Shown: positions 25,453 through 53,928 of the stretch, in pieces
Numbering within the stretch: the stretch's first letter is position 1
Layout: the number at the start of each line of letters is the position of its first letter
The notes under the pieces: generated by a model
What the model was told of the DNA's origin: nothing
Database searches by the model: none
What the model saw: the letters and a program-made list of their open reading frames with translations, nothing else
From: Oscillospiraceae bacterium
Lineage (GTDB): Bacteria > Bacillota > Clostridia > Oscillospirales > QAMX01
Reading direction: 5' to 3'
Assembly (NCBI GenBank): GCA_015067825.1
Contig: SVLQ01000001.1
Span: forward strand, 76,485-140,484
DNA: 64,000 bases
Position numbers and translations under genes: made by a program

Positions 25453-26139
25453 ATGTACACTGCGATCAAAACCGAAAGCGATGGCGGGCCGCTGGCCTCG
25501 CGGGTTTTTCAGAAGATTGAAAAAGAGATCCTCGACGGCACTTTGCCATCCGGCGAAAGCCTGACGGAAGCAAAGCTCTGCGAACGCTTTGGCGTCAGCC
25601 GGACGCCGGTCCGCGAAGCGCTGTTCCAACTGGAGCAGGAAGGCTTGGTGCAGATCAAGCACAACAAAGGCGCTGTGGTTGTCGGCATCAGTGAAAAAGA
25701 TATTGAGGACATCTATACGATCCGCATGCATATCGAAGGTCTGGCCTCACGCTGGGCTGCGGAACGCATTACCGATGAAGAGAAGAAGCAGCTGATGGAG
25801 GTCGTCGACTTGGAGATGTTCTACGCATTCAAAGAAAACGTAGAACAGTGCCGTACGCTCGATCACAGCTTCCACGACGGTCTCTATACCGCCAGCCGCT
25901 CCAAACCGCTGCGGAATACACTTCGAAGCTTCCACAACTACATCGGCCGTGCCCGCGCTCAGTCTTTCAAAACCGGCGACCGCATCAAAATTGCCGCAAC
26001 CGAACATAAGGCGATTTTGGATGCGATCATTGCCGGTGACGGCGACCTGGCTGAGCAGCTGACGAAAGATCATATCGCCAAAGCAAAAGCAAATCTTCTC
26101 CGCTACTTCCACGGCAGCAACCTGGAAACCGAGTCTTGA
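25453..26139 (+). CDS. GntR family transcriptional regulator, FCD subfamily
   Basis: A 228-residue regulator. The N-terminal winged helix (about 12-75) contains LCERFGVSRTPVREALFQLEQEGLV. The C-terminal all-helical FCD ligand domain carries its metal-ligand pattern: Asp in TLDHSFHDGLY, the His in that segment, His in ATEHKAILDAI and a late DHIAKA. It follows the Re-citrate-synthase-like gene by 18 bases and probably binds the palindrome at 24015. The ligand is likely a carboxylic acid, by family trend only. Confidence 0.93.
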   Translation: MYTAIKTESDGGPLASRVFQKIEKEILDGTLPSGESLTEAKLCERFGVSRTPVREALFQLEQEGLVQIKHNKGAVVVGISEKDIEDIYTIRMHIEGLASRWAAERITDEEKKQLMEVVDLEMFYAFKENVEQCRTLDHSFHDGLYTASRSKPLRNTLRSFHNYIGRARAQSFKTGDRIKIAATEHKAILDAIIAGDGDLAEQLTKDHIAKAKANLLRYFHGSNLETES

Positions 26140-26164
26140 CAACGGAACGGAAAGAGTATATAAT
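26136..26164 (+). promoter_or_regulatory. Promoter of the M-box/mgtE transcript
   Basis: A perfect TTGACA (26136-26141, overlapping the GntR stop), a 17-base spacer and a perfect TATAAT (26159-26164). Confidence 0.92.
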
Positions 26165-26189: not shown

Positions 26190-26343
26190 CGGATATCTCG
26201 GTAGGCGAGGCTACCACAGGGATATGGGCTGCTGCCGTCGGCAGGTGGAGACACTTGCAGACCGGTCAACAGGGGATGTCGAATTAAGGCATACCTTAAT
26301 GCAGCTTCAACGCCCTGCGAAGCTGAAGCTTGAACGATTGGGA
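26190..26343 (+). ncRNA. M-box (ykoK) magnesium riboswitch
   Basis: The region matches the M-box in order: GGTAGGCGAGGCTACC, then GGGCTGCTGCC, then GGTCAACAGGGG, then TTAATGCAGCTTCAACGCC, then AACGATTGGGAT. M-box RNAs bind Mg2+ and shut off magnesium transporter genes when it is plentiful. The closing strand GATTGG (26336-26341) is complementary to CCAATC (26393-26398) in the 5' arm of the terminator. This gives a simple anti-terminator that Mg2+ binding would disrupt. mgtE follows. Confidence 0.93.
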
Positions 26344-26345
26344 TA

Positions 26346-26368
26346 ACACTGCTGCATCTCTGCAGCAG
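26346..26368 (+). other. Hairpin between M-box and terminator
   Basis: CTGCTGCA-TCTC-TGCAGCAG is followed by TTATCTTTG. It may be a minor or first terminator of the riboswitch expression platform, but its T-run is broken. Confidence 0.5.
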
Positions 26369-26386
26369 TTATCTTTGTGTGTATTT

Positions 26387-26421
26387 GCCGCACCAATCCA
26401 CCGGGATTGGTGCGGCTTTTT
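26387..26421 (+). terminator. M-box-controlled terminator
   Basis: The stem is GCCGCACCAATCC with GGATTGGTGCGGC around a four-base loop, followed by TTTTTAT. It lies between the aptamer and the mgtE coding region, so it is the expected off-switch of the M-box. Confidence 0.93.
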
Positions 26422-26432
26422 ATCTTACGGAG

Positions 26433-26528
26433 GTGAGACACTATGGATACGGACAGTCATCGACGAAATCGCATTTCCCGATACCGGGTGTCTCACACGC
26501 GGTATCCTCATGAAGAATAGGAGGATAC
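26433..26528 (+). promoter_or_regulatory. Nested, mutually exclusive hairpins around the mgtE leader ORF
   Basis: Three perfect inverted repeats overlap. GTGAGACAC (26433-26441) pairs with GTGTCTCAC (26488-26496), covering the leader ORF ribosome site. GATACCG (26480-26486) pairs with CGGTATC (26500-26506). GTATCCTC (26502-26509) pairs with GAGGATAC (26521-26528), covering the mgtE ribosome site. The second and third cannot form together. The leader stop TAG lies in the loop of the third hairpin. Confidence 0.7.
26443..26520 (+). CDS. 25-codon upstream ORF (candidate mgtE leader peptide)
   Basis: ATG 26443 to TAG 26520 encodes 25 residues rich in Arg, His, Ser and Tyr (it begins MDTDSHRRNRISRYRV). 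The site GGAGGTGAG is ideally placed six bases upstream, as strong as any gene here. The stop is fused to the mgtE ribosome site (TAGGAGG), 11 bases before the mgtE start. Its peptide has no recognised family. I infer that its translation couples to mgtE by opening the hairpin over the mgtE site; leader ORFs are known at mgtA in Salmonella, but this one is unrelated in sequence. Confidence 0.6.
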   Translation: MDTDSHRRNRISRYRVSHTRYPHEE

Positions 26529-26531
26529 ATT

Positions 26532-27890
26532 ATGGAATTTATGCAAATCGAACCCCTGAAGACGCTGCTTGCAAACAAGCAGTACGGCACACTGCGAACC
26601 GCTCTGATTGATTTGGAACCGATTGATGTCTCTGATTTTTTGACCGAGCTTTCCGATGATGAGTTGGTTTTTGTTTTCCGGCTGCTGCCGAAAGATCTGG
26701 CCGCCGAGATCTTTGTTGAAATGGATACCAAATCGCAGGAAACGCTGATCAGTGCATTTTCCGACCGCGAGCTACACAGCGTGATCAATGAGCTGTTTGC
26801 CGACGACGTGGCAGACATGCTCGAAGAGATGCCGGCCAATGTCGTGCGCCGTATCATCCGCAATGCCGATAGTTCTTTGCGACAGAGTGTGAATGAATTG
26901 CTCTGCTACCCGCACGACAGCGCCGGAAGTGTGATGACCACAGAGTTCGTCGATCTCAGTGCTGATATGACGGTTGCAGAGGCGTTTGAACACATCCGGG
27001 CGACCGGCCCGGACAAGGAAACGGTTTACACCTGCTATATCATCGACGATAACCGCCATTTGATTGGTGTGATCGATGTTCGCACGATGCTGCTTGCCGA
27101 GCCGCAGCAGACGGTCGGCGAACTGATGATCGATAATCCGATCTTTGCCTTGACCATTGAAGAACGTGCGTCGGTCGTCCGCAAGTTCGAACGCTACGAC
27201 CTGTTGGCTCTGCCTGTGACCGATGGCGAACAGCGCCTGATCGGTATCGTCACGGTCGACGACGCGATCGACGTCATGCAGGAAGAGACGAACGAAGATT
27301 TTGCCAAAATGGCGGCTATGGCACCGGCCGAGGCGCCGTATCTGGCAACACCGGTGTTTACCCATGCCCGCAACCGCATTCTCTGGCTGTTGATCTTAAT
27401 GCTCTCGGCCACGTTTACTGGTCTGTTGATTACCCGCTACGAAACGGCGTTCGAGGCGATCCCGATGCTTGTGTCCTTTATCCCGATGCTGATGGATACA
27501 GGCGGCAACTGCGGTGCGCAGAGCTCGACGATGGTTATCCGAGCACTCGCCACCGATGAGATTGTCTTCCGTGATTATTTTCGCGTGCTCTTCAAAGAAC
27601 TGCGTATTTCGCTCTGCATCAGCGTGGTGCTGGTTGTCGTCAACACAGCACGTGTCTTACTGATGTACGGTGCCGACAGTCAAATGCTGAAAATCGCTTT
27701 GGTTTTGGGCATAACACTGGCTTGCGCCGTGATGATGGCAAAAATCCTCGGCTGTTCGCTGCCGATGCTTGCCAAGCGCTGCGGCCTTGACCCGGCGATC
27801 ATGGCCTCGCCGCTGATTACAACGATCGTCGACGCCTGTTCGGTGTTGATTTATTTCAACGTGGCTTCCACCGTCCTTTCGTTATCCTGA
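26532..27890 (+). CDS. mgtE: Magnesium transporter MgtE
   Basis: A 452-residue Mg2+ channel. The N-terminal superhelical domain (about 1-130, with FRLLPKDLAAEIF) is followed by two CBS domains (about 130-255, with SAGSVMTTEFV and LLALPVTDGEQRLIGIV) that sense cytosolic Mg2+. Five C-terminal membrane helices follow, with the pore motif MLMDTGGNCGAQSST and a conserved Asp in TTIVDACSV. Transcription is under the M-box upstream. The ribosome site AGGAGG is buried in a hairpin linked to the leader ORF. Confidence 0.97.
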   Translation: MEFMQIEPLKTLLANKQYGTLRTALIDLEPIDVSDFLTELSDDELVFVFRLLPKDLAAEIFVEMDTKSQETLISAFSDRELHSVINELFADDVADMLEEMPANVVRRIIRNADSSLRQSVNELLCYPHDSAGSVMTTEFVDLSADMTVAEAFEHIRATGPDKETVYTCYIIDDNRHLIGVIDVRTMLLAEPQQTVGELMIDNPIFALTIEERASVVRKFERYDLLALPVTDGEQRLIGIVTVDDAIDVMQEETNEDFAKMAAMAPAEAPYLATPVFTHARNRILWLLILMLSATFTGLLITRYETAFEAIPMLVSFIPMLMDTGGNCGAQSSTMVIRALATDEIVFRDYFRVLFKELRISLCISVVLVVVNTARVLLMYGADSQMLKIALVLGITLACAVMMAKILGCSLPMLAKRCGLDPAIMASPLITTIVDACSVLIYFNVASTVLSLS

Positions 27891-53176: not shown

Positions 53177-53275
53177 GGCTCTGGCACGGGGTGCTGCAGA
53201 AGTGGCTGAGATCGACTGTAATGGTCGGAACCCGAGAACCTGATCCGGATAATGCCGGCGTAGGAAAAAGCAATC
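53177..53275 (+). ncRNA. TPP riboswitch (THI box)
   Basis: The THI-box signature is complete: ACGGGGTGCTG, then GGCTGAGA (53204-53211), then AACCCGAGAACCTGATC, then CCGGATAATGCCGGCGTAGG. It senses thiamine pyrophosphate. A terminator follows at 53287 and the thiamine transporter gene at 53368, so thiamine shuts off uptake. Confidence 0.97.
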
Positions 53276-53286
53276 AAGCCGTTCTT

Positions 53287-53321
53287 CCGCACAATTTTTT
53301 CGAAAATTGTGTGGATTTTTA
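53287..53321 (+). terminator. TPP-riboswitch-controlled terminator
   Basis: CCGCACAATTTT and AAAATTGTGTGG form a 12-bp stem followed by ATTTTTAT, placed between the aptamer and the thiT ribosome site. Confidence 0.9.
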
Positions 53322-53367
53322 TATGTATCAGACGGATCAGGCATAGAAAAATACGGAGGTATTTTGT

Positions 53368-53928
53368 ATGAATGGACGTCAAACTGTCAGAAAACTGACC
53401 GAATCCGCGATTCTGGTCGCGTTGGGCTTTGTTTTGAGTTATGTGCGGATCAAATTCCTTGCCTATGGCGGTTCGATCACCGCACTCTCAATGCTCCCGA
53501 TCTTGCTGATCGGTTACCGCTGCGGCATTCTTTGGGGTTTGGGTAGCGGTGTTGTCTACGGCTTGCTGCAGGCTTTGCAGGAGGGCTCGCTTGCTCCGCC
53601 GGCTTCCGGCCTTGGCGAATATTTTGCGATGATGGCGCTCGACTATGTATTTGCATTTGGTGTTCTGGGCCTCTCGGCTCTGTTCCGCAAAAGTCGCTGC
53701 GGTCTTGCGGTTTCATCTGTCGTTTGCCTTTCGCTCCGCTACGTTTGCCATATCGCCTCCGGTGTGATCCTTTGGGGCAGCTACGCCTGGGAAGGCTGGG
53801 CTGTCTGGCCGTATTCCATTGCTTATAACGGTACCTTTATGCTACCGGAGATTATTTTCACCACAGCCGCAGCATACCTGATGACACGTTATATTCCCGC
53901 TCGTTATATCCAACCACTCAAAAAATAG
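53368..53928 (+). CDS. thiT: Energy-coupled thiamine transporter ThiT
   Basis: A 186-residue ECF S component with six membrane helices. ThiT text is clear: LTESAILVALGFVLSYV, YGGSITALSMLPILLIGYRC, and a late GSYAWEGWAVWPYSIAYNG with the aromatic residues that stack on thiamine. It needs a shared EcfA/A'/T module, not encoded here. It is controlled by the TPP riboswitch. CGGAGG precedes the start. Confidence 0.96.
   Translation: MNGRQTVRKLTESAILVALGFVLSYVRIKFLAYGGSITALSMLPILLIGYRCGILWGLGSGVVYGLLQALQEGSLAPPASGLGEYFAMMALDYVFAFGVLGLSALFRKSRCGLAVSSVVCLSLRYVCHIASGVILWGSYAWEGWAVWPYSIAYNGTFMLPEIIFTTAAAYLMTRYIPARYIQPLKK

Follow-up and report, generated by a model that had tools for sequence, protein, structure and literature searches.

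A short leader ORF and three competing RNA helices between an M-box riboswitch and mgtE in Clostridia: a candidate second magnesium sensor

Our analysis of a 64,000-nt stretch of DNA from an Oscillospiraceae bacterium (hereafter the window; GCA_015067825.1, SVLQ01000001.1, positions 76,485-140,484, forward strand) suggests that the magnesium transporter gene mgtE is under two-stage Mg2+ control, in which a transcriptional M-box riboswitch is followed by a translational attenuator built on a short leader ORF; we give this reading a probability of about 0.7. The leader ORF, the family to which it belongs, the specificity of that family for Mg2+ transporters and the three-helix RNA switch are shown by sequence. 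Translation of the leader probably flips the switch over mgtE, and we infer by analogy that low Mg2+ would act on the leader ribosome at acidic codons.

The M-box, the leader ORF and the inverted repeats of the window

The promoter, M-box, leader and mgtE features described here lie on the plus strand. A promoter-like site of the sigma-70 type (TTGACA-17-TATAAT, 26136-26164) matches the consensus at 12/12 positions, and a gene for a GntR/FadR-type regulator, assigned by eye, lies directly upstream of it (25453-26139). It is followed by a full-length M-box aptamer at 26190-26349 (RF00380, model positions 1-169), which scores 117.7 bits against a gathering threshold of 44 and is the only M-box of the genome. 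The 3' strand of the aptamer helix P1 contains the putative antiterminator strand GATTGG (26336-26341), which complements CCAATC at 26393-26398, and the antiterminator would enclose a hairpin of the form GATAAC-ACTGCTGCA-TCTC-TGCAGCAGTTATC at 26342-26373, recognized from fold and sequence. The intrinsic terminator (26387-26421) has a 13-bp stem at 26387-26416 followed by TTTTT. The window thus carries the aptamer together with a terminator and a mutually exclusive antiterminator that draws on the 3' strand of the aptamer helix; that high Mg2+ leads to termination is established for the RF00380 family, and this member would bind Mg2+ and terminate likewise. The mgtE gene itself (26532-27890) encodes a transporter of 452 aa (TIGR00400, 445.6 bits; PF01769, PF03448 and CBS domains). 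Elsewhere in the window (53177-53928), an ordinary TPP riboswitch of 63.9 bits lies upstream of a 186-aa thiamine-transporter-like ORF, ThiT-type by eye.

Between the terminator and mgtE, a Shine-Dalgarno (SD) sequence GGAGG at 26429-26433, with a computed anti-SD duplex of -13.8 kcal/mol, precedes a leader ORF of 25 codons at 26443-26520. The ORF encodes MDTDSHRRNRISRYRVSHTRYPHEE, which begins M-D-T-D, so that codons 2 and 4 are acidic; codon 5 is AGT and codons 7 and 8 are CGA. Three perfect inverted repeats, the sole ones of at least 7 bp within 26425-26540, surround the ORF. The 9-bp helix P1 (GTGAGACAC/GTGTCTCAC) pairs 26433-26441, which covers the leader SD, with 26488-26496 inside the ORF. 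The 7-bp helix P2 (GATACCG/CGGTATC), the putative antisequestor, pairs 26480-26486, also inside the ORF, with 26500-26506, and this 3' arm overlaps the 5' arm of P3. The 8-bp helix P3 (GTATCCTC/GAGGATAC), the putative sequestor, pairs 26502-26509 with 26521-26528, the arm that holds most of the mgtE SD. None of 2000 dinucleotide shuffles matched this 9/8/7-bp set (shuffle mean, 0.26 repeats of at least 7 bp), and the region 26425-26545 folds with z = -2.7.

The hairpin spanning 26502-26528 has the leader stop codon (26518-26520) in its loop. The mgtE SD, AGGAGG at 26519-26524, overlaps this stop codon and has four bases paired in P3 (26521-26524) and two in the loop (26519-26520). P2 is mutually exclusive with both P3 and P1, the competition with P1 arising because 26488-26496 falls between the two arms of P2. 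The sequence-only reading of this locus had described a clear M-box and terminator, a 25-codon ORF with an excellent ribosome site, three perfect repeats, a stop codon in the loop of the hairpin burying the mgtE ribosome site and a 7-bp repeat competing with that hairpin, and each of these descriptions held on re-analysis, which added the competition of P1 with P2.

The leader ORF in relatives

The genome collection includes 21 members of the family and no genus mate of the source organism, and the comparison was therefore made at the order level. Eighty mgtE homologues were gathered by protein similarity alone, and the M-boxes of their loci were located with covariance models. A short SD-preceded ORF starting M-D was present between terminator and mgtE in 11 of the 19 M-box-mgtE loci of the order; the eight loci without it include L002 and L003, which come from the family's two further genomes with an M-box. 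Overall, 53 of 99 mgtE loci had the leader ORF, many of them without an M-box. Seven genomes of the window's own family carry the leader before mgtE and have no M-box, for example MDAGSSCGTDAGVRL in L160 and MDGRSRRSGES in L162. The leaders closest to that of the window, in L091 and L099, share D-S(AGT)-x-H-R(CGA)-R(CGA) with it, and both follow an M-box.

Leaders starting with the motif M-D-[A/S/T]-[G/D]-[S/G]-S mark Mg2+ transporters across Clostridia. Because the first ORF scan had required GAY at codon 2, the preference for Asp was re-examined with this codon unconstrained: of the SD-preceded short ORFs before mgtE, the best one was acidic there in 36 of 46 loci (34 D, 2 E), as compared to 2 of 36 in control regions (0 D, 2 E). 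Two DNA patterns were also searched genome-wide with no requirement for a neighbouring gene. The first gave nine matches, all before mgtE, and none in the reversed control; the second gave 35 (27 before mgtE, 4 before mgtA and 4 false) and one in the control. Pooled, the 42 distinct matches comprised 34 before mgtE, 4 before the magnesium P-type ATPase gene mgtA and 4 false ones. Outside the class Clostridia, the pattern was at background among 299 genomes of the phylum (3 matches, 4 in the control). Among M-box loci, the leader ORF was also found before mgtA (L087, L093, L095, L101, L108) and before corA (L084). MgtE, MgtA and CorA are three unrelated Mg2+ importers sharing the leader, and the common theme of its targets is therefore Mg2+. 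The sequence-only reading had proposed two layers of control, the terminator of the M-box and, after it, a translated leader ORF whose hairpins exclude one another, and had made this proposal depend on a conserved ORF and conserved structure in relatives. The ORF is conserved and specific to Mg2+ transporter genes, and the three-helix switch is conserved as well (see below); the proposal is thereby supported, with Mg2+ sensing by the ribosome staying an inference.

Several loci showed unusual arrangements. Six Lachnospiraceae-type loci (L037, L040, L042, L048, L068, L083) have leaders of about 60 codons, MD[S/A]GAS..., which run out of frame over the mgtE start by more than 100 nt; direct occlusion of mgtE by full translation of the leader would follow from this overlap. 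Two tandem leader ORFs (MDAGSRRKYS..., MESGSKRSPEPDGR...) lie between a single M-box and an mgtA-type ATPase gene in L093 (1751-2218) and L142. In L089 (1735-3121), an M-box and a leader-like ORF (MDADPGNRSK...) precede a gene whose product combines MgtE_N and CBS domains and, in its sequenced part, has no MgtE transport domain. No Rfam family matched the leader element at gathering thresholds in 20 loci, and no NCBIfam or Pfam model matched the leader peptides, which are too short for a homology claim.

Coding signature of the leader

The leader ORF looks translated. Start codons switch among ATG, GTG and TTG with the SD retained, and the wobble bases of codons 3 and 4 are unconstrained (third base of codon 3: A32 T16 G13 C13 in the leader ORFs of 74 nonredundant loci). 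The recurrent block CGAAGY keeps to the reading frame at 29 of its 32 occurrences, and the spacing between blocks shifts by whole codons. Conservation within the leader falls on the beginning of the ORF rather than on its end, and Asp at codon 2 is the sole amino acid that dominates across the family. Codon usage is strongly skewed: AGY makes up 81% of Ser codons in the leaders vs 34% in mgtE, and CGA makes up 47% of Arg codons vs 5%. Such use of rare codons might signal pausing, or it might reflect a constraint at the nucleotide level.

Conservation and computed behaviour of the three-helix switch

Sequestration was measured as the energy needed to open the whole mgtE initiation region and was compared with shuffled sequences; the unpaired probability of the SD core alone gave no sequestration signal (mean rank 20.9 of 40). 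In loci with a leader, the mgtE start was harder to open than in shuffles, as expected of P3 (mean z 1.28, 27 of 57 loci above 1.65), whereas mgtE loci without a leader ORF gave a mean z of -0.06 with 5 of 49 above 1.65; the difference has p = 1.5e-5, a value which, like the others given here, treats loci as phylogenetically independent although they are not, and the shuffles do not preserve the coding sequence. The initiation region of the leader itself was likewise closed, as expected of P1 (mean z 1.34, p = 1.5e-6).

A ribosome was then simulated at each leader codon by taking the covered bases out of the fold, with all switch energies computed on isolated RNA. Across 53 loci, the mgtE start was more open with the ribosome on the first five codons (0-4 or 1-5) and harder to open past about codon 6. 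The opening cost at codons 10-13 minus that at codons 0-2 averaged +4.2 kcal/mol (p about 1e-7 against controls); the corresponding values were -0.3 for shuffles and +0.3 for leaderless loci. In 28 of 34 loci, the change came with codon 4-6 in the P site. Because this late-minus-early statistic was chosen after the profiles had been seen, it was rerun unchanged on 19 new loci picked by the ORF pattern only, and the swing was positive in 19/19 (mean +4.0, p = 1.9e-6). The swing was absent in several loci (L022, L023, L071, L102, L116), and among three mgtA loci tested it was present only in L154. At the window locus, the cost of opening mgtE was 9.8 in the free RNA, 4-6.6 with the ribosome at codons 1-9 and 10-11 later. 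Since little energy separates the P2 state from the P3 state early in translation (-22.1 vs -22.4 kcal/mol), the switch of the window would be poised rather than absolute, with a swing that is perhaps modest.

When one subgroup was aligned with MAFFT, the 3' half had too many gaps for formal covariation counts. By eye only, compensations were noted in P3 (GCGTTCTCC/GGAGGAACGC in L099; CTTTGTTTCC/GGAAACAAAG in L102) and in P2 (GGCACAGTC/GATTGTGCC in L041; GGCACAGC/GCTGTGCC in L070). In these fold models, the competition among P1, P2 and P3 is conserved beyond chance.

Proposed mechanism and alternative explanations

In an ordinary transcriptional M-box, high Mg2+ leads to formation of aptamer P1, and the terminator can then form. 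In the first stage of the proposed mechanism, the M-box of the window would terminate transcription in this manner at high Mg2+. The second stage would be a translational attenuator worked by the short ORF, a member of the leader family specific to Mg2+ transporters. In untranslated leader RNA, P1 would shut the ribosome site of the leader and P3 that of mgtE. By dwelling on roughly the first five codons, a ribosome would break P1 and free its strand, so that P2 could form, compete with P3 and expose mgtE. Once the ribosome passes about codon 6 (about codon 9 at the window locus), P2 would be covered, and P3 would re-form and shut mgtE again. By this logic, efficient elongation through the leader would turn mgtE off and slow early elongation would turn it on, and the sensed quantity would be the time that ribosomes spend on the five opening codons, the conserved part of the leader. 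At low Mg2+, the ribosome would be slowed or destabilized where the early codons are acidic (D2 and D4 in the window), and mgtE translation would rise on top of read-through at the M-box. We lean, with fair but lesser assurance, towards the broader reading in which a Clostridia-wide family of leader peptides specific to Mg2+ transporters, of separate evolutionary origin from the enterobacterial leaders and common to mgtE, mgtA and corA, serves as a second Mg2+ sensor by way of ribosome stability at the early codons, either in series with the M-box or replacing it.

The sequence-only reading had supposed that a ribosome finishing the leader opens mgtE. This could hold only where the leader stop adjoins mgtE, as in the window, where the stop lies 11 nt from the mgtE start and, because it sits on the mgtE SD, a terminating ribosome may also hand over to mgtE by coupling. 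As a general rule it is not supported: such proximity is atypical (18 nt in L006, 22 nt in L114, 26 nt in L071), in most relatives, indeed in nearly all, 45-140 nt separate the leader stop from mgtE downstream of it, and in the simulations a ribosome on codons 1-5 opens mgtE and one past about codon 6 closes it. Coupling may thus be a local elaboration at the window locus. That coupling is the whole story, with the finishing ribosome melting P3 and reinitiating at mgtE and early elongation not sensed at all, is unlikely: besides the distances, full translation of the Lachnospiraceae-type leaders would occlude mgtE, conservation is at the start of the ORF, and the early/late swing would be left unexplained. 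Slightly less improbable is an attenuator that controls Mg2+ transport and responds to some other signal, such as charged Arg or Ser tRNA, polyamines or ribosome-targeting drugs. The enrichment of the rare codons AGT and CGA would suit it, and Salmonella mgtM and mgtP sense ATP and tRNA-Pro (PMC8092293); however, Mg2+ import is what the targets share, often in series with an M-box, and no one amino acid except Asp at codon 2 dominates the family.

The bias towards AGY and CGA and the recurrence of CGAAGY would equally be expected of an RNA element, an aptamer or a protein site, that overlaps the ORF by chance and whose peptide is not read out. We regard this as quite unlikely, as the whole-codon spacing changes, the frame of CGAAGY, the free wobble bases, the interchange of start codons with the SD kept and the lack of an Rfam match in the 20 loci all argue against it. 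An ordinary M-box and terminator, with the ORF and repeats due to chance, would fit the eight M-box-mgtE loci of the order that lack the ORF. Chance origin was nevertheless rejected on the shuffles, the unconstrained codon 2 test and the genome-wide pattern set against its control; with the family-wide conservation and specificity and the held-out structural test also against it, this reading is extremely improbable.

The leader family looks like a second, ribosome-based magnesium sensor. To our knowledge, which includes the papers found here, Mg2+ sensing via the translating ribosome is known only from enterobacteria. If the proposed sensor is real, such sensing either arose in Firmicutes or spread there, as a device serving a whole regulon with three unrelated transporter families, cells stack a ribosome sensor on a riboswitch for the same ion, and why one mRNA needs both an RNA sensor and a ribosome sensor for one ion becomes directly testable. 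With a DNA pattern, a peptide motif and a structural signature supplied, the family can be annotated now.

Comparison with known systems

No description of the clostridial leader family was found in the open-access literature searched, Rfam, NCBIfam or Pfam. The sequence-only reading had known of no M-box followed by a translated leader ORF with attenuator-like pairing, and as regards the translated leader ORF it was mistaken: the pe20 M-box of Mycobacterium tuberculosis controls a conserved, translated small uORF (uORF2/Rv1805A; PMC12810186). The order of M-box and uORF is common to both systems, but in mycobacteria a translational M-box, coupled with Rho termination, acts directly on the uORF, the peptide of which is specific to mycobacteria and has Pro7. 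The window has a terminator M-box before an ORF that is proposed to control the transporter start; its residue 7 is Arg, and Pro7 is not among the common residues of the clostridial family. Compared with the M-box (ykoK leader) family RF00380 in general, the window locus shares the aptamer, antiterminator and terminator and differs in the leader-ORF attenuator downstream. A structured mgtE leader including the mgtE SD has also been reported as a proposed riboswitch motif; unlike the clostridial leader, that motif is restricted to Thioalkalivibrio and has no reported leader ORF (PMC11109978).

The enterobacterial leaders mgtL (before mgtA) and corL (before corA) resemble the clostridial leader in several respects. 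Efficient translation of mgtL or corL represses the transporter, and MgtL acts at low Mg2+ through an EPDP motif at codons 2-5 (PMC11282234, PMC11552253); the clostridial family likewise has acidic residues among the first five codons of a conserved, SD-preceded short ORF upstream of an Mg2+ transporter gene, and repression by efficient leader translation was obtained in silico. Pairing of the leader SD in one RNA state and use of the device by more than one transporter family are shared as well. The output differs, being Rho-dependent transcription termination in mgtL and corL and, in silico, a translational sequestor in Clostridia.

The closest parallel in architecture is Salmonella mgtQ (Choi et al. 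2021, PMC8092293). There, Asp2 and Glu5 cause the ribosome on the leader to slow down or abort, stem 2:3 forms in place of 1:2 and 3:4, and the ribosome site of mgtB is freed. Both systems place a short ORF before an Mg2+ transporter gene, with stem 1:2 starting within the ORF, an antisequestor 2:3 and the transporter ribosome site in stem 3:4, and the computed energies give the clostridial RNA the same three mutually exclusive helices. Like mgtQ, the window leader has Asp2 with another acidic codon close by, although most relatives have one early acidic residue only (MDAG), a weaker signature than EPDP or D2/E5. In both, slow leader translation switches the transporter on, as computed on the clostridial side. 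On the other hand, mgtQ belongs to another phylum, encodes a different peptide of 8 aa, lies between mgtC and mgtB within an operon rather than after a riboswitch, and serves one transporter family, whereas the clostridial ORF has 20-43 codons, is used by mgtE, mgtA and corA alike and often comes on top of an M-box. Without being classed as a homologue of the mgtQ and mgtL leaders, the clostridial leader is, by analogy, one that would work as they do.
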